From contig NZ_CP046803.1 of assembly GCF_009763805.1 (NCBI RefSeq), forward strand, positions 496,001 through 560,000: a stretch of 64,000 nt of DNA, in the 5' to 3' direction. This DNA comes from Vibrio cidicii. GTDB taxonomy: Bacteria; Pseudomonadota; Gammaproteobacteria; Enterobacterales; Vibrionaceae. Below the pieces are notes generated by a model, which saw nothing but the letters and a program-made list of their open reading frames with translations, made no database searches and was not told where the DNA came from. The stretch's first letter is position 1, and every line of letters starts with the position of its first letter. The translations under genes were made by a program, and so were the position numbers. Positions 3,716-56,494 of the stretch are shown one piece after another.

Positions 3716-4708
3716 TCAAGCTTGCCGACCTTGCATCTGCTCATCTAAATTCAGCACAGTGAGGGCATTACTCACACTGGTGGCAATCACATCGACAGCG
3801 CCAGTACGCAGTGCACCAAGCAGCGCTAATGGCTTACTGTTTTCCGCCGCAATCGCAATCACTTCAGAGATGGGACGAAACTCTTCTATCCCTAAGCCAA
3901 TCACGCGATCACTCATGACGGTGTTGGCGACGTTGCCATGAATATCAAAGAAATCGTAGCCAGCAAAATCCCCCACCACACCTTGCTGCAAACGAGATTG
4001 CACCACTTCATCGGGCGTGAACCATCCTAAATCAACCATATAGCTGTTTTCGCTCATATCACCAATACCAACCAGAGCAATATCCGCTTTTCTCGCCAGA
4101 TCAAGCGTCTGTTTTACTGTCGCATTTTGCATAAATGCACGTTTCTGCTCACGGTTTTCGGCGTACGCAGGCGCATAGAGAGTTTCTGAAGTGCCACCGT
4201 ATTTTTTTGCCAACTGGCGACAAATATGGTCCGCGTTAAACATACCTCCGCGTGGGTGAATGCCGCCAATGCCACAGACAAATTTGCAGTCACGCGGGGT
4301 AATGACACCAACGTGGTGCGCAACCGCAGAGACATTTCGCCCTTGCCCAACCGACACCACCATGCCATTTTTCAACGTGCTGGTCAGGTAATTCGACACT
4401 AAGCCAGCCACCTGCTGACGCTGTGCTTCCTCGCTGGGTTGATCCAACGCCACCAATGCACGCTTTACGCCAAAACGCTCGATCAAACGTTGCTCAATTT
4501 TGGCGCTAAACACTGGATGATATTTGACGGTAATTTCAACAATCCCCTCGTCTCGCGCTTGCTTGAGCATCCGCCCCACTTTTGCGCGCGACACTGAAAA
4601 TTTCTTGGAGATCTCTTCCTGAGTCGCCCCGTCTTGATAGTAGGCAACGGAAATTTCAGTCAATAAATCTGTATTTTCAATCGATATCTCTTGGTTTGAA
4701 CCGCTCAT
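3716..4708 (-). CDS. SorC-family sugar-responsive transcriptional regulator
   Basis: This 330-residue regulator has an N-terminal helix-turn-helix (about residues 15-60, with ATQEEISKKFSVSRAKVGRM as recognition region). It is followed by the large SorC/DeoR-type effector domain, which binds phosphorylated sugars. It is divergent from tal and tkt across a 462-bp control region holding repeated GAGCAAATG(C/T)TCA sequences. It therefore probably controls itself and the tal-tkt genes in response to a pentose-phosphate intermediate. That target assignment is inferred from position only. A GGTGGA sequence sits upstream of the ATG at 4708. Confidence 0.85.
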   Translation of the reverse strand: MSGSNQEISIENTDLLTEISVAYYQDGATQEEISKKFSVSRAKVGRMLKQARDEGIVEITVKYHPVFSAKIEQRLIERFGVKRALVALDQPSEEAQRQQVAGLVSNYLTSTLKNGMVVSVGQGRNVSAVAHHVGVITPRDCKFVCGIGGIHPRGGMFNADHICRQLAKKYGGTSETLYAPAYAENREQKRAFMQNATVKQTLDLARKADIALVGIGDMSENSYMVDLGWFTPDEVVQSRLQQGVVGDFAGYDFFDIHGNVANTVMSDRVIGLGIEEFRPISEVIAIAAENSKPLALLGALRTGAVDVIATSVSNALTVLNLDEQMQGRQA

Positions 4709-32116: not shown

Positions 32117-32272
32117 TTATCGCGCTCGATTATCTCGCTTCAACGGTTTTACCACCGAGTCTAGCCCTTCGATTTTTAACGCCAAGCAAAGCTGTAGCAA
32201 TTGGCCTAATTCCCCTTCTGGAAATCCTTTGTTCGCAAACCAAAAACAATTAAATTTCTTCGGGAAAGATCA
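32117..32272 (-). pseudogene. Displaced 3' end of a DUF3820 gene (left junction)
   Basis: On the minus strand this reads FWFANKGFPEGELGQLLQLC then LALKIEGLDSVVKPLK and a stop. It matches the C-terminal half of the DUF3820 protein encoded at 56267-56494. Upstream homology reaches DLPEEF, with two extra bases disturbing the frame, and ends near 32272. The most economical reading is that this is the original 3' end of the host gene, left behind when the 24-kb element integrated, while the 5' part lies at the far junction. Confidence 0.8.
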
Positions 32273-33045: not shown

Positions 33046-33707
33046 TGAAGTGCCCAGTCAGGTTGGAATAGGTCACTATTATAATAAACGCATTCTGTGA
33101 CAGAGAGTGAGTCAGGTAAGTCACTCTCCTTAAACATCACATCAGCTATGCACGACGTTCGGAACTGAAATAGTCATACAATAAATCAAGTGGCGTATGT
33201 CCCGCATGTTCTAACACTCTCGCTCGCAGTATCCCTTCTGTGCAATCGGCTAACTCATCCCAATCTGGATTGGAACTCAGAAACAACTCTCCACAACTGT
33301 CAGGAGTGTTTTTGTTCCAGATTTCCTCAATCTGATATTCGAGGTCACCATTAAAATCTAAATTATCTTCCAGATCTTCAACAAAATTATCCCATTCATC
33401 CAAGGTCATCCATATGCCACCTGTACCATGAACATTAAGAGCATAAAACTCAAAATCTGGAATATATGGTGATGATTTTGATAGGAATGGAGTATTTAAT
33501 ACTATGCCATCAGGATCAACGGCAGCACTTAACTGCTGGTCAGAGCCACAGAATACATCACATTTTAGGAGTCTAGAATAACGCGCGTTGCTTGCTAACT
33601 CGTCACTTAGTCCTGCAAATTTGAGCGCCTCAATTAGCTCTTCAGTCCTGATCAGTGCCGACTCTTGTTTTTGCATGGACTGATAACAATTGAATCCAGC
33701 GTTTCTA

Positions 33708-34872
33708 AATAGCTGTTCCTAAATGTAGATCACCGGTGTGTAAAAAAGAAGGGAACTCGGTACCGTTTGAGCGATCTGATCAGTCGCCAAACATACAAAC
33801 CCGCAACCGTTACCGAGTTCCTATGATTCTAACATTACCTGACCGCGCTGAACGACGTCGTATCACCAAAAAGATGCATAAAACTAAGGATAAAGACCAT
33901 TACCGACGCTTGAATGCCATATTGCTACTTTCTCAAGGGCATTCTGTTACCACAGTCTCGAATATTCTGGTTGCAGCCCGCTCTTCTATAGGACGCTGGA
34001 TTCATTGGTACACGGAATGCGGCATCGATGGCTTGGAAAGCTCAACTCGAGGCAGAGCCACGACGCTCCCATTTCTTCAAATTGCCGCTGTATTGACTGC
34101 TTTACTCGCACTGAATCCTCAAAGTCTGGGATATCAGCGTTCACGTTGGAGTACCGAGCTGATGGCGATTGAAGTAAATCGGATATTTGGGTTTAACGTG
34201 CACTCATCGACCATTCGTCGATGGTTGCCTAAACTTGGGATTGTCTGGCGAAGAGCCTCTCCAACATTGCATATCAAAGATCCAGATAAAGAAGCCAAAC
34301 TCGCCAGAATCAAAGAGGCATTAGCGCGTTGCGACGCCGACCATCCCGTGTTTTATGAAGATGAAGTCGACATTCACTTAAATCCCAAAATTGGCTCAGA
34401 TTGGATGCCAAAAGGTCAACAAAAGAAGGTGGCGACACCGGGACAAAATGCTAAATACTATCTTGCAGGAGCTCTGCATGCTAAGACCGGTAAAGTCTCG
34501 TATGTCGGAAGTAGCAGTAAGAACTCAGAACTGTTTATTGCGATGCTGGAGCAGTTGAAACGCCAGTACCGCCGAGCGAAAACCATTACTCTTATCGTGG
34601 ATAATTACATCATTCACAAGAGCAGAAAAACACAGGGTTGGTTAAAGCAAAATCCGAAGTTTGTTTTGCTTTTTCAGCCAGTGTACTCGCCTTGGGTAAA
34701 CAAAATAGAGAAGCTTTGGCATGCGTTGCATGAAACGGTGACACGGAATCATCAATGCAAAGCAATGTGGCAACTTTTAAAGCGGGTTCGATACTTTATG
34801 GATAACGTTTCACCATTTCCCGGCGGTGGTCATGGGCGACAAAAAAGTGAAGCATAATTAGGAACAGTTATT
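33708..34872 (+). mobile_element. IS630-family insertion sequence, copy 1
   Basis: The 1165-bp element has ends AATAGCTGTTCCTAA and TTAGGAACAGTTATT as inverted repeats, flanked by TA on both sides; the original target was CTAG. A subterminal inverted repeat (GAACTCGGTA... and ...TTACCGAGTTC) lies before the transposase ATG and could block read-through from outside. It appears identical to copy 2 at 41896-43060. It encodes one DDE transposase. Confidence 0.93.
33823..34857 (+). CDS. IS630-family DDE transposase (copy 1)
   Basis: The ATG at 33823 gives 344 residues and is preferred over an upstream in-frame start at 33736, because the region between holds the subterminal inverted repeat. The N-terminal helix-turn-helix (AERRRITKKMHKTKDKDHYR) is followed by the catalytic domain: FYEDEVDIHL (D), TLIVDNYIIHKS (D) and SPWVNKIEKLWHALH (E), the IS630/Tc1 pattern. 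Full length and no frame breaks, so it is probably active. Confidence 0.93.
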   Translation: MILTLPDRAERRRITKKMHKTKDKDHYRRLNAILLLSQGHSVTTVSNILVAARSSIGRWIHWYTECGIDGLESSTRGRATTLPFLQIAAVLTALLALNPQSLGYQRSRWSTELMAIEVNRIFGFNVHSSTIRRWLPKLGIVWRRASPTLHIKDPDKEAKLARIKEALARCDADHPVFYEDEVDIHLNPKIGSDWMPKGQQKKVATPGQNAKYYLAGALHAKTGKVSYVGSSSKNSELFIAMLEQLKRQYRRAKTITLIVDNYIIHKSRKTQGWLKQNPKFVLLFQPVYSPWVNKIEKLWHALHETVTRNHQCKAMWQLLKRVRYFMDNVSPFPGGGHGRQKSEA

Positions 34873-35296
34873 TAGCAAGTTGCTGAAATCCTTGATTTAG
34901 AGAACATCGCCTATTTTCTAGTGGGATAGTACGAAATTCCGTCTTAAAAATATCAGATAGAATCTTGGTCGATACCTCAGAGAAAGAAGCAAATGCATTG
35001 GTTAACATAACTCACCTTATAGCTGGCTAATTTACCGAACGCGTCTGATTTTGTTGATACGGCATACCCCAGCCATGGATTCATTATTACCAAATAGGTA
35101 CCCTCATTTTTACAGCAGACGCACCATTGCCATGAGTGGCAAATATGAGTATACAGAATCAGATAAAAATGACAATATATTGTTTTATAGGGTAAAAATA
35201 ATACTTTTATTTATATTAGTGCATACGATTATGAATAAAAAAACGAAGTAAATTTATTTACGCAGTAGGACTATATTATCGAATAGGAGGTAATTT

Positions 35297-38652: not shown

Positions 38653-39958
38653 CTACTTTTTCTTTGAAGCTTGAGCCTTCGCTTGCTTAATAAAGTCATC
38701 CTTCGTTGTAATGTGTCTAACCAGATCATCAACCGCATCTTGAGAATAAATGTGTGTATTGGATATCTTTTGGTAGTGGTGGTGTTTGTTAGACGTTGCT
38801 TTCCAATTTAGCTTTTTTAGTGCTGCTTGGAAGCAATGATTGTTTATCGTTGGCTTTCCTCTCTTGTCTCGAGCTACTAAACACTTCTCTAGCTTTACGA
38901 TATCGTAGTTAGCGTGAAGGGTTTTATTGATTGCATCAATAGCAGTCTTTTGAGTAAAAGTATGCGTTTTCTCTGGGTCTACTTGTTTTTCTACAATGAG
39001 AGCTTTTTTCAACCGCTCCAAGTCCTGAGTTTTACCATTAGCAGCAGCAAGTATTATCTGACTATCTTTTTCATTGCGAGCGTATACAAGTGATACGTTA
39101 ATAGGTATGGCGAACTCAATATCATCTTCTTGCTCAATTTCGTCTTGTACCGTTTGAGCTAATTCAAGAATATCTTCCGCAGCTTTACCATATAATGAGC
39201 TTAACATCGCTTTTGGTGGCATTTTGAAATCACCAACTAGCGATATCATGCCAGCATGCTGAGACTGCATAAATGGTATCTCAGCAAAATCTTGAAACTT
39301 GGATGAGTAATTTAGAACGCCTGATTGAAAAATTCGAGAGGCCAATCCTTGAAGCTCTGGCATAAGTAAATGAACTGCACCATCACGCCAATCAGCTATA
39401 CGAGAGATATTCTTCCTTACATTGTCATTCTCTTTGAACAACTTATCCAAACATTGTCGCAAAGAAATTGTTTTCTTAACGCCTTGTTTATTCGATTTCT
39501 CAAATATTGATTCTTCACCATCACGCTCAATGATAATTGCCTTAAGTAGCTGTTCCCAAGCTGTTGAGTACATCATGACAAATCCATCTAACTTATTTTC
39601 AAGTGATGGTCTGTTATAAAGCTCTAAGGCGAGCATCATATTATCTTTGGATTTTTTGAGCAGAGCTTTCGCTAAGTTAGATTTACATTTATGACCTAAC
39701 TCTTGATAGTGTTTGCTTTGAGATAAACGCTTTTTGAACTCGATGAAACTTACGTCTAGTACATTTATTGCTTCGTACGTATTAGCTTCGATCTCAGCTA
39801 AGAAACTGGGTGATCTGTCCCTTCCCGTAGTAAGACTTGAATGTACTGGGTTTCCAACCCACTTGCTCAAGAAGCTCTTCTTTTGTGAAAGTAGAACTCT
39901 CAGTTTGATGCTTATGTAAGAATTGGTACAGCAATAGCTGCATATCGGTTTTAGCCAT
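38653..39958 (-). pseudogene. DUF3644 (HEPN-like) protein, one-base frameshift
   Basis: Correcting one base in the AAA run at 39804-39806 gives 434 residues starting MAKTDMQLLLYQFLHKHQ, a winged-helix-like N terminus, then QFLAEIEANTYEAIN. The DUF3644 core follows (MMLALELYNRPSLENKLDG, AWEQLLKAIIIERDGEE). It includes ADWRDGAVHLL, which contains R-x4-H, the pattern of HEPN ribonucleases. The C-terminal third has DIVKLEKCLVARDKRGKPT and HHHYQKISNTHIYS. Without correction the N terminus is out of frame. The HEPN connection and a role in phage defence are family-level inferences. Confidence 0.72.
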
Positions 39959-40138
39959 TTTGCACTCAAATATATGATGGGACTATTGCAATGCATGTTA
40001 TTGAATAGCAACGAGCAGTTCAGAGAGAGGCATCAAAGAATGGGATTTTTCTAGAAAGTAGCATCAGCTTTAGGGACGAACTTCTAAAACAAGACCCAAA
40101 TCAAAATTGTCCAGAGACGTCTCACGACGCCCAGCTTG

Positions 40139-41573: not shown

Positions 41574-41895
41574 CGCGATTGCTCTAAACCGCTTCTGCCC
41601 CAAAGTAACTCCGGGTCTAGATGCTCTTCACCAAACGAAAATGTTCACATTGACCACTAATCCTCTGTGGTTCTGTTCAGCTTCTTATTTAGCTTTTGGT
41701 CATTTTCTTTATTAGCTAAGTCCGTTATGAAGTTAATGTTTGACGCAATCACGCTATAAATGCAAAACAACTGAGCATATACAAGGCAAAGTAACACACA
41801 AAGACCAGCAAACGAAAACAGGTCAGGCACTTTCAAATACAAGCTTGTACTCACTAGGAACGGCTTAATGGAAATACCAATCAACAGCACTGCTA

Positions 41896-43060
41896 AATAG
41901 CTGTTCCTAAATGTAGATCACCGGTGTGTAAAAAAGAAGGGAACTCGGTACCGTTTGAGCGATCTGATCAGTCGCCAAACATACAAACCCGCAACCGTTA
42001 CCGAGTTCCTATGATTCTAACATTACCTGACCGCGCTGAACGACGTCGTATCACCAAAAAGATGCATAAAACTAAGGATAAAGACCATTACCGACGCTTG
42101 AATGCCATATTGCTACTTTCTCAAGGGCATTCTGTTACCACAGTCTCGAATATTCTGGTTGCAGCCCGCTCTTCTATAGGACGCTGGATTCATTGGTACA
42201 CGGAATGCGGCATCGATGGCTTGGAAAGCTCAACTCGAGGCAGAGCCACGACGCTCCCATTTCTTCAAATTGCCGCTGTATTGACTGCTTTACTCGCACT
42301 GAATCCTCAAAGTCTGGGATATCAGCGTTCACGTTGGAGTACCGAGCTGATGGCGATTGAAGTAAATCGGATATTTGGGTTTAACGTGCACTCATCGACC
42401 ATTCGTCGATGGTTGCCTAAACTTGGGATTGTCTGGCGAAGAGCCTCTCCAACATTGCATATCAAAGATCCAGATAAAGAAGCCAAACTCGCCAGAATCA
42501 AAGAGGCATTAGCGCGTTGCGACGCCGACCATCCCGTGTTTTATGAAGATGAAGTCGACATTCACTTAAATCCCAAAATTGGCTCAGATTGGATGCCAAA
42601 AGGTCAACAAAAGAAGGTGGCGACACCGGGACAAAATGCTAAATACTATCTTGCAGGAGCTCTGCATGCTAAGACCGGTAAAGTCTCGTATGTCGGAAGT
42701 AGCAGTAAGAACTCAGAACTGTTTATTGCGATGCTGGAGCAGTTGAAACGCCAGTACCGCCGAGCGAAAACCATTACTCTTATCGTGGATAATTACATCA
42801 TTCACAAGAGCAGAAAAACACAGGGTTGGTTAAAGCAAAATCCGAAGTTTGTTTTGCTTTTTCAGCCAGTGTACTCGCCTTGGGTAAACAAAATAGAGAA
42901 GCTTTGGCATGCGTTGCATGAAACGGTGACACGGAATCATCAATGCAAAGCAATGTGGCAACTTTTAAAGCGGGTTCGATACTTTATGGATAACGTTTCA
43001 CCATTTCCCGGCGGTGGTCATGGGCGACAAAAAAGTGAAGCATAATTAGGAACAGTTATT
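41896..43060 (+). mobile_element. IS630-family insertion sequence, copy 2
   Basis: It is 1165 bp, with the same ends as copy 1 and flanked by TA; the target was again CTAG (GATA-CTAG-CAGTG on the minus strand). It sits inside the membrane-protein gene in the opposite orientation to that gene. Confidence 0.93.
42011..43045 (+). CDS. IS630-family DDE transposase (copy 2)
   Basis: This copy appears identical to the transposase of copy 1: 344 residues with the DDE motifs FYEDEVDIHL, TLIVDNYIIHKS and SPWVNKIEKLW. The two copies being alike points to recent transposition within this element. Confidence 0.93.
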   Translation: MILTLPDRAERRRITKKMHKTKDKDHYRRLNAILLLSQGHSVTTVSNILVAARSSIGRWIHWYTECGIDGLESSTRGRATTLPFLQIAAVLTALLALNPQSLGYQRSRWSTELMAIEVNRIFGFNVHSSTIRRWLPKLGIVWRRASPTLHIKDPDKEAKLARIKEALARCDADHPVFYEDEVDIHLNPKIGSDWMPKGQQKKVATPGQNAKYYLAGALHAKTGKVSYVGSSSKNSELFIAMLEQLKRQYRRAKTITLIVDNYIIHKSRKTQGWLKQNPKFVLLFQPVYSPWVNKIEKLWHALHETVTRNHQCKAMWQLLKRVRYFMDNVSPFPGGGHGRQKSEA

Positions 43061-43338
43061 TAGTATCACTGCTGAGATAACCACAACACCAACCAACAAC
43101 TGTACTCGCTTTTTATCTGCTTCTGGGAATATAGCAGACGAGCTTGGCTGAATAACCTTACGCATGGCTTGCGGGTAAATGTAAGCAATCCAAATCCCCA
43201 TGATAGTAAAAATCATGGCTGACCCGTTTTGCAAAATACTAACTATAGGCGACACGTCGCTGTAGGTTATGTCGTCTTTGAATATCCAACTAACTAAGGC
43301 GATGAAGCAAGCTAAAGCAACATGCCAAATCAAGGTCT

Positions 43339-44196
43339 TCATTGTCCAACCGCTTCTTCTTGTTCTTCCTCAATAAACGCTGATAGTAGTTTACCACGCT
43401 TAAACTCCATAGCCTTAAACAAACGCTCTGTTGTGTAATGCCCTGTGTCATCACGACCACCACCTGCTAAATCGTTTACAGGTAGAATGCTTTTGACAAC
43501 GAAGTTATCTAACCAGACAACCCCTGAATTCTCTTTCTTGAAGCCAATATTTCGCCATTCATCACCACCCGCGTATTCACGCTCGTATAGTTCGATCAGG
43601 TCTTTCAGCTCTTTTACTGTCGGCTTAGCCTCAATGTTAACTTCTACTCTTCGGTTTGCTCTCGTCACTTGACTTGAAACGAAAGGCAGACCTTTGAATA
43701 AGTTAGTCCAACCGCTTTGCTGCACTACCTGAGCACTAATCACATCACGTTTAACGAAATGAGTGATTTCACCTGTCAGACCTTCCAAGTCGGCTTCAGT
43801 AGTTGGTTTCTTAAACTGCTCGGAATAAGCCTGAAACCATAAATTGCCTTTCTCGCCTTGCTTGGTCGGAGCAAACGAAATAGACAGATACTTACCCTTA
43901 CCGCCTTTCCGCTCTTTCTCTATGACCTTTCTTTGTCTGAAATCACTATGTAGCTCTACATAGTCACGCATGAATCGGTTCATGATTTCTGTGTCAGAAA
44001 CAGAGTTCGGAAAGCGAATAGACGCGAAAATATCTAACGAGGGGACAAACCAGTAATAAGCAGCTTCACCCCAAATAACGCGGTCTTCACCGACGTTATC
44101 ATCAGCATTGTAAAGGTTATTGTCTTTTAACCCTGCATCAGCCTTAATGCCGTATACACCGTTACCCTGACCAATAGCACGCCAAAGGATAAGCAT
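43339..44196 (-). CDS. Hypothetical protein, middle gene of the three-gene operon
   Basis: The 285-residue product has AGGAG before its ATG at 44196. It starts MLILWRAIGQGNGVYGIKAD and includes PSLDIFASIRFPNSVSDTEI, a basic stretch (RQRKVIEKERKGGKGKYLSI) and TRANRRVEVNIEAKPTVKEL. It seems soluble and alpha/beta. No family is recognised. It follows the small first gene by 16 bp and overlaps the membrane gene by 4 bp, so the three are made together. A sensor or nuclease role is not supported by any motif. Confidence 0.65.
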   Translation of the reverse strand: MLILWRAIGQGNGVYGIKADAGLKDNNLYNADDNVGEDRVIWGEAAYYWFVPSLDIFASIRFPNSVSDTEIMNRFMRDYVELHSDFRQRKVIEKERKGGKGKYLSISFAPTKQGEKGNLWFQAYSEQFKKPTTEADLEGLTGEITHFVKRDVISAQVVQQSGWTNLFKGLPFVSSQVTRANRRVEVNIEAKPTVKELKDLIELYEREYAGGDEWRNIGFKKENSGVVWLDNFVVKSILPVNDLAGGGRDDTGHYTTERLFKAMEFKRGKLLSAFIEEEQEEAVGQ

Positions 44197-44927: not shown

Positions 44928-45849
44928 ATGAAACGAAATGTAGTTGCTTTTTTGAGCAAAAAGAATCTATCACTTGCGGATATACAGAATAGTAAAAAGC
45001 AATTTTCCTCACATCGTAAGAGCGATGAAGATGATTTGGTTCTTTGTTTGTCAAACCATACTGGCACCGCAGAATGGGCTGGATTGTTCTCTGACTATAA
45101 TATTGATGATCGTCACTTTAAACAAAAATCAGTTAAAGGGGCCTTTTTTGTTAGAGTTGATAAGCGCTATGTGATTTTTACATTCGGTCACGGTAGAAGC
45201 TTGATTGATAAATCAGCAATTGAGCGCGGCTTTGGGTTGAGAGTGTCAATGAATCTAGGAGATCCCGAACAACTAAAATCTATCGACAAGTCAACGTTAG
45301 ATCGAGTCGCAAGAAACACACGTTTCTCAAGTAGCTATGAACTCAGGCATTCAGGATTTTGACTTCGCTTTCGATCACGAGATTTTAAAATCGATAACCG
45401 CCACCGTTAGCAAACAAGATGAAGAGCTTGAAATGGTCTCTGGTAATGACTCTGTATCACTCTATACCGAAATAGAGGCTGACAAATTTCGGGAGATTGC
45501 TGAACGGTTGGTTGCCGCATATTTCAGTGACCACTACAAAGAACAATACCCATGGGCAGAGTTTATAGGCTTAGAGTCTGATCCAGAAATAGTCAACAAA
45601 CTAGAAACTACGTTAGTCGAAAGGTTTAAATCAAAATGTGTAGATGGGTTCTGGCTCGCACCTCCCAAAATTATCGACTATCATAATTTTTCCGGTTTTG
45701 TCTACTCCACAAAGACGATAAGAAGTGGATGCCCTTGTAAGCATCCAGAATTAAAACTGAGTGCCTTTTTGGAGGAAGCACCGTTTAAAAGTAAAGAATC
45801 AATATCAATTAGCACTCTAAAAACCAAAGAAATATATCTATACGTGTAG
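44928..45849 (+). pseudogene. DUF6119/TIGR04141-like protein, frameshifted and truncated by IS3
   Basis: The N-terminal part (MKRNVVAFLSKKNLSLADIQ) carries GAFFVRVDKRYVIFTFGHGR and GFGLRVSMNLGDPEQLKSID, hallmark segments of the sporadically distributed TIGR04141 family. The frame breaks near AA 45340-45341; removing one base joins SSSY to SGIQDFDFAFDHEIL. The IS3 copy at 45845 then ends the protein (stop TAG inside the IS end), so about the last third of a usual family member is missing. The family occurs in variable islands and is suspected of a defence function, which is not proven here. Confidence 0.72.
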
Positions 45850-45852
45850 TGG

Positions 45853-47033
<1,181 letters not shown>

Positions 47034-47090
47034 AAAGTCACCTATTTGTCTCTGAGATGTATTTTAACATCTCTATTTAGGTGGCCAAAT

Positions 47091-48398
47091 TTACTGTACC
47101 ACTACAACAAAACCTTTATCGATGTTGGTCTTGTAAATACAGTAAAACTGTCTTTGTTGCCTAGTTAACTCCCTAATAAATCTACGACTCTCATCAATAG
47201 CTAATTGCTTATTTTTCCTCACCTGTTCCTCACGTTCTTTTGTGGAACGATTAGGTGATTTAGATAGAAATTTTTTTCTTTTTTCGTCGATTAGATTGCG
47301 GCGATACTCATGATTATCTCTAAGATCTACTCGGAAGTTTGCTCCAGAATTGAGTTCACCATCAATTCGCTTACGGCGAGATTTAGCAGAAAGCTTAGGC
47401 TCAATCTTATCTGAGAAAACAGAAGTTAGCAGATTTTTGCTAAACGGTGAGGTTGTATCACTCATGAATTCGCTCTTAAACCTTCTGACAGACTCATCAA
47501 TCGTTGCTTCATTGGACGAGTCAACACGATACTTGTCATAGAGATACTCTAAAAATTCCAGTCCCTCACCTCTCACATTTAGTGAGCACCACTCCCCTTT
47601 ACGACCACGAACTTTCTTGCTATTTATCTTAATCTTCAGATAGCGATTGCCTTTAGTGCCTTTGGTTGCGACAGGCGTGATCGGTGATGAGATGGGAGCA
47701 ATATGCTCAAACTCCATAAGAGACTTGGTTAGTTCTTCTCCAGTTTTAGGTTTACAAGTTTGTAGATGCTCGATCAAAGCTTGCCTAACCTTGTGGCTAG
47801 TACTCTTACCCTTTACAGGCGTAACTCGGTCAATTTGTTGTTCTGCGTTTCTCTCCATAACCGTAACTGGGTCTAAAAACCCATAGCGTGCATTAATTTC
47901 TGATTGAACAGCCGAGTGATATGACAAATCATTAGGATTATAAAACTCTAATTTTTTCTGAGTCTTATGATCAAGGAGAGATACAGCAACATGTAGGTGA
48001 GGCTTGCGACGCTGACCATTTTCATCGAGCATGTGCTTTCTAGTAGGGATATGCATTTCTGCATAATAGTTAAGCTCATCAAGATCACGATGAGGAACAT
48101 TTGCGCGAAGCACCTCATCAACAATAGCCTTGTGCATCTCATACTGCTCACTGGTCGGTATTTCGCTGTATTTTTTTATATCTGTCTCATCAAAACTGAT
48201 AGTAATGTGCTTGTACGCTCCATCCCATTTGCTTCTGTATTTTGCAATCCAATTTGCGTCCCGCTCGATGGCCTCTAGCGAGCCATGAATTGGAACTCGT
48301 GTATCGTACTCATCCCGATGAACCCCTGTGGTTCTAACCCTGCCGTTAACAAGGTAGTCACCGATGCCATTAATGCGCGTTGAAAATCTAATAATCAT
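47091..48398 (-). pseudogene. Relaxase (mobilisation protein), C terminus cut by IS3 copy A
   Basis: The 435 residues visible include YKHITISFDE and NYYAEMHIPTRKHML, then KPHLHVAVSLLD, which carry the clustered histidines of relaxase active sites. A strand-transfer tyrosine is probably among those near the N terminus; which one is not clear. The last residues (GFVVVVQ) are read from the IS end, so the native C terminus is lost. The relaxase nicks oriT and pilots the strand in mobilisation. It follows the MobC-like gene by 4 bp. Truncation may spare the catalytic part. Confidence 0.75.
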
Positions 48399-48402
48399 TT
48401 GG

Positions 48403-49215
48403 TTATTTCTTTTTAACTACTTTTATGTGCTGACCAAGGCTTTCCTCCATCAAAAATTTTAGAGCTGACATTTGTCTATAAATGAGCACAAATTTCATAT
48501 CTAAACCAGAATACCTTTCTTGTAGTGTTACTAACGCTCTACCAACACTATTTAGGCGTGAATAATAGAACCGCTCAGTCTTAAGAATTAGGTTAATGTA
48601 ACCAAGATCTACAGGTTGGATTTTGTAGTTAGGTTTTAGCATTAATTTGCATAGTTGTTGAACAGATTCAGTCCCGACTGCCTTGTCATATAGTTGGCTG
48701 TAGAGCGAGTCGGTGACTCTAAAACAAACAACAGAACTTGTGCTGTTTTTTTCCTCTACATCCTCATCAAAAATAACACCTTCAGATACAAAATCATCGC
48801 CTTTATTACCGAGGTATCGAATCGAAGATTCTGGCTTAGGAAACGTTGAGTTATGCACTGTAAGAAGGTGACATATTTTTCTAAGACAGATTAGGTAATT
48901 TGTTAGCTGAAAATCGACTTTTGATTGTATTGATTCTTCATTATTAATCATCCCCCAAAATATCTTTGAAAATGAATCAAAGTGAGACTTTTCAATTTCC
49001 AAAATAGACACAGCCATCAGCTCTCTAGATACATCAACAGGAGGAACTATTCTATCAACATCAATCATTCTTCTAGCAAAGATATTGATGCTTTCTCCAT
49101 TGAGTAAAAGAGGCTCTAACTCTTCCTTTAAATTGTTGTCGATTCTAAAGCCAATAATTTTGCTTAAAGTCTCCTTCTTTTTCTTTTGTTTATTTTGACT
49201 CTCTTTTTTTGTCAT
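48403..49215 (-). CDS. MobC-like accessory protein with two similar half-domains
   Basis: The 270-residue protein starts with a lysine-rich tail, then IIGFRIDNNLKEELEPLLLN followed by GESINIFARRMI, a ribbon-helix-helix-like segment. A second, similar segment comes about 140 residues later (VVCFRVTDSLYSQLYDKAVG then TESVQQLCKLML). Both follow the pattern FR(I/V)xxxL...ES(I/V)xxxxxxM(I/L). Such proteins bind oriT and recruit the relaxase. It is first in the mob operon, with the oriT-like hairpin just upstream, fitting that role. Confidence 0.6.
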   Translation of the reverse strand: MTKKESQNKQKKKKETLSKIIGFRIDNNLKEELEPLLLNGESINIFARRMIDVDRIVPPVDVSRELMAVSILEIEKSHFDSFSKIFWGMINNEESIQSKVDFQLTNYLICLRKICHLLTVHNSTFPKPESSIRYLGNKGDDFVSEGVIFDEDVEEKNSTSSVVCFRVTDSLYSQLYDKAVGTESVQQLCKLMLKPNYKIQPVDLGYINLILKTERFYYSRLNSVGRALVTLQERYSGLDMKFVLIYRQMSALKFLMEESLGQHIKVVKKK

Positions 49216-49951: not shown

Positions 49952-51343
49952 TTAAAACAGGCTATTTTCACTTAAATTGGAGAATAGATCGGAATCCCTT
50001 TCGGCCTTAGGTTTCTCTGGAACCTTAGTAGCTCTTTCGTCCACACTCGTATCTGTAACTTCCTTTAAAGCAACATCGTCAGATGTAGGCTCGATACCAT
50101 CAGGTTTAGGCTCACTATTATTCATAATTTCGGGTTGGGATTTAAATGACGCTTTGGCTTGTTCTTTGCTACCAACACTACCCCTTTTAATCGCCATTAT
50201 TTCCTCCTCAACCGTTCTGGTATCCTCGATATTTATGAGTTTTTCCAACCTATCCATCCTAGATCTACCCTTGCCCTTACTCTTACTCTTACTCTTAGAT
50301 TTAGCCTTCTCATTTGCTAATCCTGATGGATCAATAGTTATAGAGACACCGACAATTCTGCGCCCTCTGGTTTCGACCTTAAACAATTCGCCATTCTTTT
50401 GAGTTACAATTTTAAGTGCTTTTTCTGACACATCAGGATCTTGAGAAATTTCGTTAATTTCATTTAATGATTTATGTACAACATGTTTGCAAAAATCACT
50501 ACCATTTTTGTATCGATTAGTTGTCCCCATCTCCTCTCGTAACTCCTGAATAGTTACATTAATTTCTCTAACTGATGTTCCTGTATCTAAATGATATCTA
50601 CGTAAAAGAACCAACCACATTCTCATAGTAAATTCTGATTTAGAACTTTTAACTAGATAAAGAGGCAGTGCTGTATAACCGATACGCTTCAAATCTTGGC
50701 AGTAAAAAACCAAAAATGGCATAAATCTAGGATTTAACTCAACCGAAACGACCTCATTACCCTCAATCAATTGAATGCGACTAAAAATTGGAACTACATC
50801 CCTGCACCTTTTTCCATTTTTCTCATATTTGTATTCAAATGCGGTGTTAAAATTCGTACTAGATGCAGCCTGCGCTATACTCTCAGATAACCTGCTAGGG
50901 GCTATATTTATACGTGAATCTGGCGACCAATAGCTGACAAAATCGCGTAAATTAAAGCTAAATTGCAGATAGCTAGGGTGTTTACAAAAAAATATACTCG
51001 CACACTCAAGCAGACCTAACTGATCCCATTGAATAGAAGGTTCACTTCCCTCTCCAGACTCTAGGTACGTATTTTCCATTAATCGATCATTTTTCTTTAA
51101 CTCGATTAACTCAGATTCTCGATCATCGCCCTTAATTACATTCTTGTGAATTTTAATTAAATCAACCTCAAGGTTGTTCATGTGGCTATTTAATGCACTA
51201 ATCAAAAACTTATCGGTAGGAACAAACGCAGCAACTGCGGATGCCATAATTCGCTGTTGCTGGAGTGTTGCATGAGGGGAAACTAGCAATCGGCTAAAAT
51301 TTGCTGCGCCGTTTTTCTCAATTTCACTTAAATTCATCATCAT
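49952..51343 (-). CDS. Rep_3-type plasmid replication initiator
   Basis: The 463-residue protein has two winged-helix-like halves of the RepB/RepE class, for example SFNLRDFVSYWSPDSRINIA and NVTIQELREEMGTTNRYKNG. A Lys/Ser tract (KAKSKSKSKSKGKGRSR) links to a long acidic, low-complexity tail. It reads away from five iterons (51433-51539) that it should bind to start replication. An inverted repeat between iterons and gene could be its own operator. An initiator inside a chromosome suggests that the element once was, or can be, a plasmid. The gene looks intact. Confidence 0.82.
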   Translation of the reverse strand: MMMNLSEIEKNGAANFSRLLVSPHATLQQQRIMASAVAAFVPTDKFLISALNSHMNNLEVDLIKIHKNVIKGDDRESELIELKKNDRLMENTYLESGEGSEPSIQWDQLGLLECASIFFCKHPSYLQFSFNLRDFVSYWSPDSRINIAPSRLSESIAQAASSTNFNTAFEYKYEKNGKRCRDVVPIFSRIQLIEGNEVVSVELNPRFMPFLVFYCQDLKRIGYTALPLYLVKSSKSEFTMRMWLVLLRRYHLDTGTSVREINVTIQELREEMGTTNRYKNGSDFCKHVVHKSLNEINEISQDPDVSEKALKIVTQKNGELFKVETRGRRIVGVSITIDPSGLANEKAKSKSKSKSKGKGRSRMDRLEKLINIEDTRTVEEEIMAIKRGSVGSKEQAKASFKSQPEIMNNSEPKPDGIEPTSDDVALKEVTDTSVDERATKVPEKPKAERDSDLFSNLSENSLF

Positions 51344-51409: not shown

Positions 51410-51432
51410 AAGGAACTTTCTGCACTTACGCT

Positions 51433-51539
51433 ACCGATATTGTTCGTAATAAATACTGATATTGTTCGTAATAAATACCGATTTTGTTCGTAATAATACT
51501 GATGTCGCTCGCAATATTACTGATATTATTCGCACTAAT
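51433..51539. other. Iteron array, candidate replication origin (oriV)
   Basis: Five direct repeats start at 51433, 51455, 51477, 51498 and 51519, with spacings of 22, 22, 21 and 21 bp. The shared core is GATATTGTTCGTAATAA, with changes in the last two units. The spacing of about two helical turns and the position upstream of a Rep_3 gene are diagnostic of an iteron origin. The AT-rich stretch at 51340-51400 could be the melting region. Confidence 0.8.
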
Positions 51540-51639: not shown

Positions 51640-52018
51640 TTGGAAAACAGATACAAGATTAGGATTTTGATGGAAGAACTTTTGAGTGTAAGTAGTCCAG
51701 TTGTGGGAATTGATAATGTGTTAGTTCCTATCTCGTGGGGGAGTGGTTTTGACTATTGATATCGGTTATAGCCTTTTTATTAACGCACCTACTGCTTTCC
51801 CGATGACATTGATACTCTTCATGGCAATGAACGAATTACTATCGATGTCCAACCACCTCAAAACCATAAAGATCCTGATGCCCTACCAACCTCACCCATC
51901 GGTACTAGAGCTAATAACCAAAGACTCAATTAAAAAAATTAAGTCCTTTTTAGCCCTAAACGGAGAATTTAAAAATTTCGAGTTAGACACTCGTACCTTA
52001 CAATCACCATCGCTGTAG
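51640..52018 (+). CDS. Two overlapping small ORFs after the iterons (doubtful)
   Basis: A TTG-started ORF of 39 codons (51640-51759, MENRYKIRILMEELLSVSSP) has GGAGG about 8 nt upstream. It overlaps a GTG-started 91-codon ORF (51743-52018) with a hydrophobic middle (AFPMTLILFMAMNELLSM). The good ribosome site and the overlap suggest coupled expression. No similarity is recognised, and the second ORF runs toward the repeat array. Treat as tentative. Confidence 0.3.
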
Positions 52019-52029
52019 TCAGCGATCGC

Positions 52030-52890
52030 AGAACCTCCAAAGTTGAGGCATACAATCCCCCTAAAAACACCATAGTTAAGGTGCTGAATGTACCTATAAT
52101 CACCAGTGTTTAGCGGTAGCGATCCCAGAATCACCATAGTTTCAGGCGCTGGATGTGCCTATAATCACCAGCCTTTTGCGATGAGCGATCCTAAAAACAC
52201 CATAGTTGAGTGCTTCGAGGTACCTACAATCACGGTTGCGCTCCCAAAATCACCATAGTTCAGGCACTGGATGTCCGACAATTACCAGCCTTAGGCGATG
52301 AGCGCTCCCAAAATCACCATAGTTGAGTACTTCGAGGTACCTACAATCACGGTTGCGCTCCCAAAATCACCATCGTTCAGGCACTGGATGTGCTTATAAT
52401 AACCAGTTTTAACGATAGCGATCCCAGAATCTCCATAGTTCAGGTGCTAGATGCACCTATATTCACCAGACTTAGGCAGTGAGCGATCCTAAAAACACCA
52501 TAGTTGAGTGCTTCGAGGTACCTACAATCACGGTTGCGCTCCCAAAATCACCATAGTTCAGGCACTGGATGTGCTTATAATAACCAGTTTTAACGATAGC
52601 GATCCCAGAATCTCCATAGTTCAGGCAATGGATGTGCCTATAATCACCAGTTTTAACGGTAGCGATCCCAGAATCTCCATAGTTCAGGCAATGGATGTGC
52701 CTATAATCACCAGTTTTAACGGTAGCGATCCCAGAATCTCCATAGTTCAGGTGCCGGATGCCCTATAATCACCAGTGTTTGGTGCTAAGCGATCCTTGAA
52801 TCACCATCGTTCAGGTGCTGGATGTCCTATAGTCACCAGCGTTAGGCGGTGAGCAATACTAAAAACACCATATTTAACGGGCTGCAATCT
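52030..52890. repeat. Tandem array of about 14 units of about 63 bp
   Basis: The box CCATAGTT and its variants occur at 52070, 52134, 52200, 52253, 52317, 52370, 52433, 52498, 52551, 52614, 52677, 52740, 52804 and 52868. The steps are 63-66 bp, with three short steps of 53 bp. Each unit also has a second, related half (TATAATCACCAGT about 28 bp on). The middle units are nearly identical and the outer ones diverge, as in satellites that homogenise by unequal exchange. Steps of 63 and 53 are close to six and five DNA turns. The array lies between the iteron region and the recombinase gene. It is probably a protein-binding array. Confidence 0.8.
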
Positions 52891-54101
52891 CAGAATATCC
52901 AACGAACTCTCGTCGAAAGAGCTATGGGTATGACATTTAATACTCCCTCATACCATGCCCTTTAATAGAATGAAAAACTCACTAAGACACCAAAAAGTCG
53001 AGTGATGAATAAAGCTCACGATTGAAATTATTGTCTTGTAAGAATAATGAAAAATCACGATCCGCGACAAAGCCAAACTTACAAGCTAACTCAACGAAGG
53101 TTGAGTCCGGATAGTCATACGAAAACTCTTCGGACGATGGATAATTAAACATGAGAGAAAGATAGTTTGTAGTAACTCCATCAACTTTATTTTTTCCTCC
53201 ATTATCACGAATAGTATCTGCAATAACTTCCATTCCTTTCTCCATAAACATAGCCTTATCAAGTGACGCCCAATAAGTTTTACCACACTCTAAACTCAAT
53301 TGACTCCATTGATAACGACCTTTACTAGGAAATAAGCACTTTGTTAAATCGAAAGCATGGAGTTTCTTAAAAATGCTTGATAAGAATTGGTCACCATCAT
53401 CAACTTTAATGTTACTTTTACTGCCGTACATATATACAAAGGGTAGATAAAGTCCTTTATTACCATCGTCAGCCTTTAAGTACTGATATGGCAACATTGC
53501 AAGCCTTCGCTTTTGTCCATTTTTGAAGTGCCAAGTAATATCGACACAGTTAGCGTACTTGGTCTTAGCATCGCTGCAAGGTTCAACCACACGATTTAAT
53601 GTAATTGAAGAAATAAAACGATAGAAATTATTACGGATTGCGTATCTTTCTGGATGAGAATAATCAGTACGAACATCGCCACTGAAAATTTCTGGCAAGC
53701 TCTCTAACTCGTCTGCGCTTAACACAACATTGTTGTTATTAATGGCATCTAACTTTGCCTCTAGATCTGAAATATTGCTTTCACAGTCTTCAAGAAGATC
53801 TAAAAACGACATCGCTTTTTGGGCTTTATAACGCGTAACCAGTTCATCTCGTCTTTCGTGCTCTATCGCCAACTCTGCCTCAATATTTAGTTTCTCATTT
53901 TCAATAGCGTTATTATTGGTCTTATCGGATTCAACGAGATATGCATCCTTACATATCTCTAGCGTCAAGAAATCCAGCATGTTTGCATTGTAAACCTCTT
54001 GATCATGCTCTCCCTTCATAGCCAAGTTTGTAGTGGTACAGTAAATTTGGCCACCTAAATAGAGATGTTAAAATACATCTCAGAGACAAATAGGTGACTT
54101 T

Positions 54102-55282
<1,181 letters not shown>

Positions 55283-56266
55283 CCACTACAGTTGCACACA
55301 TAATTTACTCTGTCGCCACCTTTATCCACAAAAACCATCGCTCCTCCACAAATACCACAACGAGCAAGACGTTTTAGTAATGGTATTTTGCCACTACTTG
55401 TATTCCTTCCTCGTTTTTTGGATTTACACATTTTAAGTTTACGTAATGTGGCTTCATCAATTATGGGGGGATAGTAATTTTCCAAAACATGGCTGACACC
55501 TTCTATATGAAAGGTTTTTTCCCCAATCAATGAACGATTAGCCCATAGCTGACTGATAGCAGTATAATCCCATGTATTCGATTGTTTTACAGTACCCTTT
55601 GTTCGTGTTTGCTTGTACTCGAAATTTGCATCAAGGTACTGTTTAATTTTTAAGTCCCCGTAACCTGCAAGTTTCATTTCAACCGCTTTTTTTACACCTT
55701 CGGCATTGATATTAAGAGTATTTGTAGGTTGATCTATCCAGAATGGTGAGCGTCCTAGTGCTCCTTGTGGCTTACCTGTATCTTTCCAATGCTTTAAAGC
55801 GATCTTCTGCGCCGCAATTATACGCTTCGACTTAGTTCTAGATTCTTCGTTAGCACGCTCCATTGTCAAAAAGGAATACATAAGATCTATGAAAAGGTGC
55901 TTGCTGCTCGAGTCGTACATTTTATCATCGATGTGCGTATACACTCTTACGCCATTATTGATGAAGTCCAGTAGTTGAGCCATTGCGACATTTGTAGCCT
56001 CTCTGGAAATTCGGTCGAGAGAAAAAATTACTAGGATGCTCCCATGCGCTATTTCACCACTCTCAATACGAGATAAAATAACCCCAAACTCACCATCTTT
56101 GTGGCTGCCATGGTAGGCGCTTAACCCCTCGTCGACGAAGTCCTCGTCATGAATAGGAAGACTATACTCTTGCGATAGACGTTCAAGGACACTTCTCTGT
56201 TGCTGTGTTTCTAAACCAACGCCTTTGAGCTGCTTAGTAGTACTGACGCGAGCGTAATTATAGATT

Positions 56267-56494
56267 TTAGGGATATTTCTCATACTTAAGGGGCTTCACT
56301 ACAGAATCTAAGCCCTCAATCTTGAGGGCTAAACATAGCTGCATTAAATCACCCAACTCTCCCGAAGGAAACTGTTTTTTATTGGCAAACCAGAGCAAAT
56401 AAGCTTCCGGTAGATCGATCAGCATTCGCCCAGCATATTTGCCATAGGGCATCGGCATACGCGCCAATTTTAGTAAGTTCTCTTTTTCCAGCAT
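56267..56494 (-). CDS. DUF3820 protein, host gene rebuilt at the right junction
   Basis: The 75-residue protein reads MLEKENLLKLARMPMPYGKY, then LIDLPEAYLLWFANK and GLDSVVKPLKYEKYP. The 5' part is native. From about codon 26 on, the sequence probably comes from the element, because the displaced native end lies at 32117-32272 and differs by roughly a third of its bases. The recombinase ATG lies inside its last codons. The family is small and of unknown function. Integration preserves a full-length gene, a common strategy of site-specific elements. Confidence 0.82.
   Translation of the reverse strand: MLEKENLLKLARMPMPYGKYAGRMLIDLPEAYLLWFANKKQFPSGELGDLMQLCLALKIEGLDSVVKPLKYEKYP

Follow-up and report, generated by a model that had tools for sequence, protein, structure and literature searches.

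Iteron-like repeats in a Vibrio cidicii island: probable orphaned sites of a plasmid initiator family

What does a long array of evenly spaced direct repeats bind when it lies in an integrated element of Vibrio cidicii, with a Rep_3 gene and that gene's own 22-bp repeats on one side and, on the other, the 3′ end of a serine integrase that has been split? The window—the whole stretch of 64,000 nucleotides analyzed here (NZ_CP046803.1, positions 496,001–560,000; G000:C1:496001-560000)—belongs to a genome of two contigs and contains the element, which is ∼24 kb long with approximate ends. A first-pass annotation of the letters alone had proposed a “centromere or incompatibility region” occupied by a new or host-encoded protein. 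We consider it likely that the array consists of iterons of a plasmid initiator family, captured by the island and now an orphan there. We call this family GalRep, after a 373-amino-acid (aa) protein of Photobacterium galatheae. The array and its best site are as follows.

51992..52900, plus strand: iteron-like array of 30 direct ∼17-bp sites (16 A, 14 B), 30–34 bp apart, with three gaps of 20 bp
52119..52135, plus strand: best single site, A type (GCGATCCCAGAATCACC), the sole match without mismatch to GCGATCCYARAATCACC in the genome

The site layout was curated by hand across 51992-52900, slightly beyond the limits first noted, and repetition is evident both from Tandem Repeats Finder (period 63, 13.4 copies, 52060-52884) and from the autocorrelation suggested earlier as a check (self-identity of 0.40–0.44 at lags 181, 63, 298, and 244, where 200 plain shuffles never exceeded 0.32). 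A sites are of the GCGATCCCAGAATCACC type and B sites of the ATGTGCCTATAATCACC type, all 30 pointing in the same direction, so that the two related halves described for each unit are indeed present. The steps run 32–34 bp from A to B and 30–32 bp from B to A, or 20 bp in three short units, and it is the sum of these half-steps that yields the 63–66-bp and 53-bp units of the first-pass annotation (A-to-A steps: 33, 64, 66, 53, 64, 53, 63, 65, 53, 63, 63, 63, 64, 64, and 31 bp). A and B alternate save for a B, A, A order near the left end and an A, A pair at the right end, and GATC occurs in 9/16 A sites and 0/14 B sites. Across the genome, all 12 matches to GCGATCCYARAATCACC with 0 or 1 mismatch fall within the array, and two matches with 2 mismatches fall outside it. 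The array start overlaps the end of an upstream open reading frame (ORF). Coding through the array was rejected given 13–25 stops in each of six frames across 51980-52909, which apparently bears out its earlier description as non-coding; an 86-aa ORF at 52508-52768, which runs across 63-bp units that are almost the same, was taken as an accident.

The A-to-B spacers (52079-52702) deserve a separate remark, as many could fold a 6-bp hairpin of the AGGTGC..GCACCT type. Among 8/13 spacers (6 distinct rows), 88.9% of cells were paired, a value reached by 13/500 shuffles, and two pairs were changed on both sides, as reached by 159/500 shuffles, these being too few sequences for a claim. The window has no Rfam match at gathering score, and a structured RNA of a described family was rejected.

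The array's probable partner emerged when species genomes were scanned for three AATCWCCA cores spaced as in the window array. At least 111 genome stretches matched, of which two were read: one, in Vibrio thalassae (L104), was a 7-bp microsatellite and was discarded, and the other, in P. galatheae S2753 (NZ_JMIB01000027.1, L065), was a matching array. It comprises 44 exact-core A/B sites, 29–34 bp apart with one step of 63, and shares with the window array its A and B sites, ∼31.5-bp spacing, ∼63-bp dimers, and direction. The two differ in their spacers, in the number of sites (44 exact-core sites vs. 30 in the window), and in that an initiator-like gene follows the P. galatheae array: the gene for the 373-aa protein lies ∼0.84 kb downstream, with four inverted exact-core sites in between. 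When a matrix built from the P. galatheae array alone was run over the 64-kb window, 23 places scored ≥7 bits; the array contained 21 of them, and 2 were elsewhere. The earlier suggestion of a DNA-bound protein array is likely to hold, and an unexplained repeat becomes a putative DNA–protein pair, i.e., the P. galatheae gene and a ∼17-bp site.

These comparisons also bear on the two functions first proposed. Partition sites can hold tandem, phased direct repeats, and a plasmid centromere bound by a partition protein would thus look similar. Yet no ParA/ParB match was found among 17 element proteins examined with Pfam (which do not include every element ORF), and in P. galatheae the homologous array precedes an initiator-like gene that has single inverted sites just before it—though no profile search for partition genes was made around the P. 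galatheae array. We rate the centromere as very improbable. Because of the homologous array, the initiator-like gene, and the GATC-bearing sites that also occur upstream of the genes of three GalRep relatives, we read the array as iterons serving incompatibility or copy control; thus the incompatibility half of the first proposal was the better guess, and the centromere half is not supported.

What kind of protein is GalRep? The P. galatheae member is named “Replication protein” in UniRef and is without a match in Pfam; among initiators, RctB (the best match) and RepE come nearest to its predicted fold, and the family may accordingly have a twin winged-helix initiator fold, the predicted fold and the UniRef name being the two grounds for calling it an initiator. 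Only eight proteins among 5.8 billion sequences belong to it at E values of 0.001 or below. GalRep would then be a putative initiator family of few members, RctB/RepE-like in predicted fold and with an iteron array of unusual length in P. galatheae. That RctB is the best fold match, and that it binds several chromosomal places in V. cholerae (as described in PMC11711613), raises the thought that the host's own chromosome-2 initiator occupies the array. However, TGATCA and TTACGG, the motifs given there for most RctB sites, occur 0 times in 51980-52909. Three RctB regions reported in the same source, including crtS, also lack both motifs. We regard RctB binding as extremely improbable and do not favor the host-encoded part of the earlier claim; a plasmid initiator from a family that has no Pfam model is the best candidate for the binding protein.

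Helical phasing, the feature that first drew attention to the locus, is genuine but loose. The 30 positions of the window array have a coherence of R = 0.73 at 10.62 bp/turn vs. a mean of 0.30 in a jitter control (gaps shifted by up to 5 bp; 0/2000 runs reach the window's R), but this gap comparison overstates significance because the units were copied from one another and the gaps are not independent. Other arrays therefore judge the phase better. The P. galatheae array reaches R = 0.78 vs. 0.26 in its jitter control. Gaps in the less regular relatives lie on average 1.79 bp (P. damselae), 1.53 bp (V. chagasii), and 1.31 bp (G300) from a multiple of 10.5 bp, as compared to 2.57 bp for random gaps of 18–130 bp (P = 0.027, 0.0024, and 0.0002, respectively), in a test that dropped gaps of >130 bp for the relatives; gaps of 990 bp (G300), 2305 bp (G152), and 2220 bp (Shewanella) were also excluded. 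Judged by gap coherence, V. chagasii shows a weak phase (R = 0.44 at 10.5 bp). The phased-lattice idea would have been refuted by homologous arrays out of step with the helix; none was seen, with the less regular relatives following the phase only loosely.

Does the genome that carries these sites also encode their protein? The GalRep family profile found nothing in it at E values up to 1, while in the same run it recovered the V. chagasii (1e-149) and P. damselae (7e-181) members, each of which is itself a profile row or almost one. As the cognate initiator gene was not found, we regard the locus as a site array only rather than a complete GalRep replicon. Profile matches occur in 2/329 family genomes (G300 and G315), a search with the single GalRep sequence found none in 227 genus genomes, and paired sites occur in 2/329 family genomes, i.e., the source genome (7) and G315 (35). 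The array itself was found in 1/227 genus genomes; elsewhere among these, blastn of the array at E values up to 10 gave, among the matches listed, no more than short pieces of up to ∼45 bp (best E 0.0012). A DNA search of plasmids matched the small gene upstream and not the array, and one of phages gave no match. In viral contigs, neither the strict site pattern nor a stricter array pattern occurred, the three-core pattern matched 29 stretches, and the GalRep scan gave no confirmed member.

Several observations weigh against orphaned GalRep iterons. Most of the stretches matched by the three-core scan are outside the two that were read, and the family profile located an initiator gene neither in cis nor elsewhere in the genome. 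The GalRep fold was predicted from eight sequences and has one confident match, to RctB; a profile search of the sequences of solved structures found no true GalRep relative, and the family is unstudied as far as the literature searched shows. In addition, many window sites are variants of the P. galatheae consensus (AATCTCC in four A sites and GCGCTCC in four), the left halves of the window B sites are weak against it, and some of these deviating sites may be non-binding.

Whether the array is an orphan also depends on what runs replication of the element around it, whose relevant parts are these.

49952..51343, minus strand: Rep_3 initiator gene, 463 aa (Rep3_N, Rep3_C; Pfam)
51432..51532, plus strand: 22-bp tandem repeats, 4.7 copies, beside the Rep_3 gene (repeat computed)
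51655..52018, plus strand: small membrane-type gene with a broken frame, its 3′ end entering the array
52982..54025, minus strand: serine integrase, C-terminal piece, ending just past the array
54028..55290, plus strand: insertion sequence splitting the integrase, with an identical inverted copy at 45845-47107
55201..56283, minus strand: serine integrase ORF, N-terminal piece (Resolvase, Recombinase), its listed 3′ end entering the insertion sequence
56267..56494, minus strand: host gene (QSregVF_b domain) at the right element end, next to the integrase; ends approximate

The 22-bp repeats are presumed to be the iterons of the element's own, different replicon, and replication of the element is probably run by this unrelated Rep_3 protein and its repeats; the GalRep-type array is therefore an orphan. 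With the Rep_3 gene and repeats 0.5–0.6 kb from the array, the Rep_3 protein might conceivably bind the array as an additional control region. We hold this to be quite improbable, since the 22-bp repeat agrees with the array site at 8/20 positions (a score that 82% of shuffles reach), it is a different initiator family whose site the array matches, and relatives of this Rep_3 in elements of G152 and G134 lack an adjacent array of this kind. “Next to the origin,” as the first-pass annotation put it, is right as to position, but the repeat of that presumed origin resembles the array site no more than shuffled letters.

The rest of the element adds context. A displaced end of the QSregVF_b-type gene lies at ∼32133-32242, the short shared stretch not being significant alone, and G134 has a related integrase next to a gene of this kind, accompanied by a Rep_3 gene and by no tandem array. 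Two pairs of insertion sequences are 100% identical, a direct pair at 33705-34875 and 41893-43063 (which we take to be IS630-like) and the inverted pair at 45845-47107 and 54028-55290 (presumably IS3-like). The small membrane-type gene resembles a V. parahaemolyticus plasmid region over 51660-51922, and it matches that plasmid (CP099948.1) twice (L003:5268-5618 and L003:8001-8265), one match divergent from a Rep_3 gene and the other preceding a set of 21-bp repeats and a further rep gene. PADLOC gave candidate defense matches to PDC-S19 (38653-40011, E 5e-72) and a piece of PDC-M18A (43339-44196, E 6e-20), a DUF6119 protein is divided over two overlapping ORFs (44928-45849), and two minus-strand proteins of 435 and 270 aa (47091-49215) adjoin the Rep_3 gene. 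By eye these last resemble a relaxase and its accessory protein, and neither has a naming match in Pfam, NCBIfam, or PHROGs.

How, then, might the array act? GalRep would bind its sites at about one per three helical turns, and the array would soak up initiator and handcuff the iterons of a GalRep-type origin, the replication of which would be lowered or blocked as in classical iteron incompatibility. In accounts of iteron plasmids and of RctB at ori2, extra iterons titrate the initiator and pair origins, thereby lowering copy number (PMC6090056; PMC11711613). The array most likely represents the control region of a second replicon that was captured by the island and whose initiator gene was lost or replaced, and it would stay silent unless a GalRep-type plasmid entered the cell. 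Alternatively, the island may keep the iterons as a selected decoy that destabilizes, or exploits, competing GalRep-type plasmids. We deem this unlikely, if worth serious thought: thirty sites with recent unit copies, the lack of any initiator gene or remnant found in the genome, and the precedent of SGI1, whose parS-like sites bind the ParB of IncC plasmids and destabilize the plasmid (as reported in PMC10954446), speak for it. Against it, the element looks worn (the integrase is split, and the small gene and the DUF6119 gene are broken), the array was found in no other genus genome, and conservation is not clearly greater in the A and B sites than in the A-to-B spacer (0.39 and 0.37 bits vs. 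0.60 over nine copied units; 0.61 for B sites over 13). A plasmid-interference device, in which 30 alternating A/B sites capture and cross-link the GalRep initiator, is a tentative idea; were it true, an island with no protein of its own for the task would expel or limit a competing replicon.

Relative to known systems, orphaned GalRep iterons would be familiar in architecture and unusual in setting. In RepE/RctB-type replicons (F incC, Vibrio ori2-inc), short sites for an initiator of this fold are likewise repeated in one direction at close to whole helical turns, and RctB 12-mers contain GATC, as many sites of the window array do; the 30 direct copies in the window agree with the several copies of a ∼12–22-bp site that define iterons. 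The window array differs from these loci in its site sequence, its far larger number of sites, its place in an integrated island, and its initiator gene, which was not found in the genome. A second array, in G152 (L023:2307-2780), follows the same plan: its 63-bp dimer consists of a 30-bp and a 33-bp half, and ∼0.4 kb downstream lies a Rep + AAA-ATPase operon flanked by further copies of the array's GATCGGGATTTGCAT-type site. As these sites differ and the initiators are unrelated (BLASTP scores vs. GalRep are at chance), the G152 array is parallel rather than homologous, iterons spaced by three turns in 63-bp dimers have seemingly evolved twice, and the assignment of the window array to Rep + AAA-ATPase replicons was dropped. 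Apart from these, Shewanella xiamenensis (NZ_AP026733.1, L027:4382-4610) has a 42-bp, 5.5-copy array of initiator-like sites overlapping a “hypothetical protein” CDS, OO995_RS21580 (4377-4607), which is probably a mis-annotated iteron array.

Among the papers listed by searches of the open-access literature, none dealt with islands that carry orphan iteron arrays, and our claim of novelty extends as far as those searches. The second chromosome of Vibrionaceae is itself described as derived from an iteron plasmid (PMC11711613). A further comparison is SGI1, likewise an integrated mobilizable element that carries sites of a plasmid's own maintenance protein, although SGI1 has two parS sites with a tested effect (as given in PMC10954446) and the window has ∼30 putative initiator sites and no known helper. 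SGI1's own replication is also reported to destabilize its helper plasmid (PMC7433901). SGI1 shows that islands are able to affect plasmids in such a manner; if orphan arrays do act in trans, DNA alone could be enough for an island to exert plasmid incompatibility, and the parS case of SGI1 would be extended to replication initiators.
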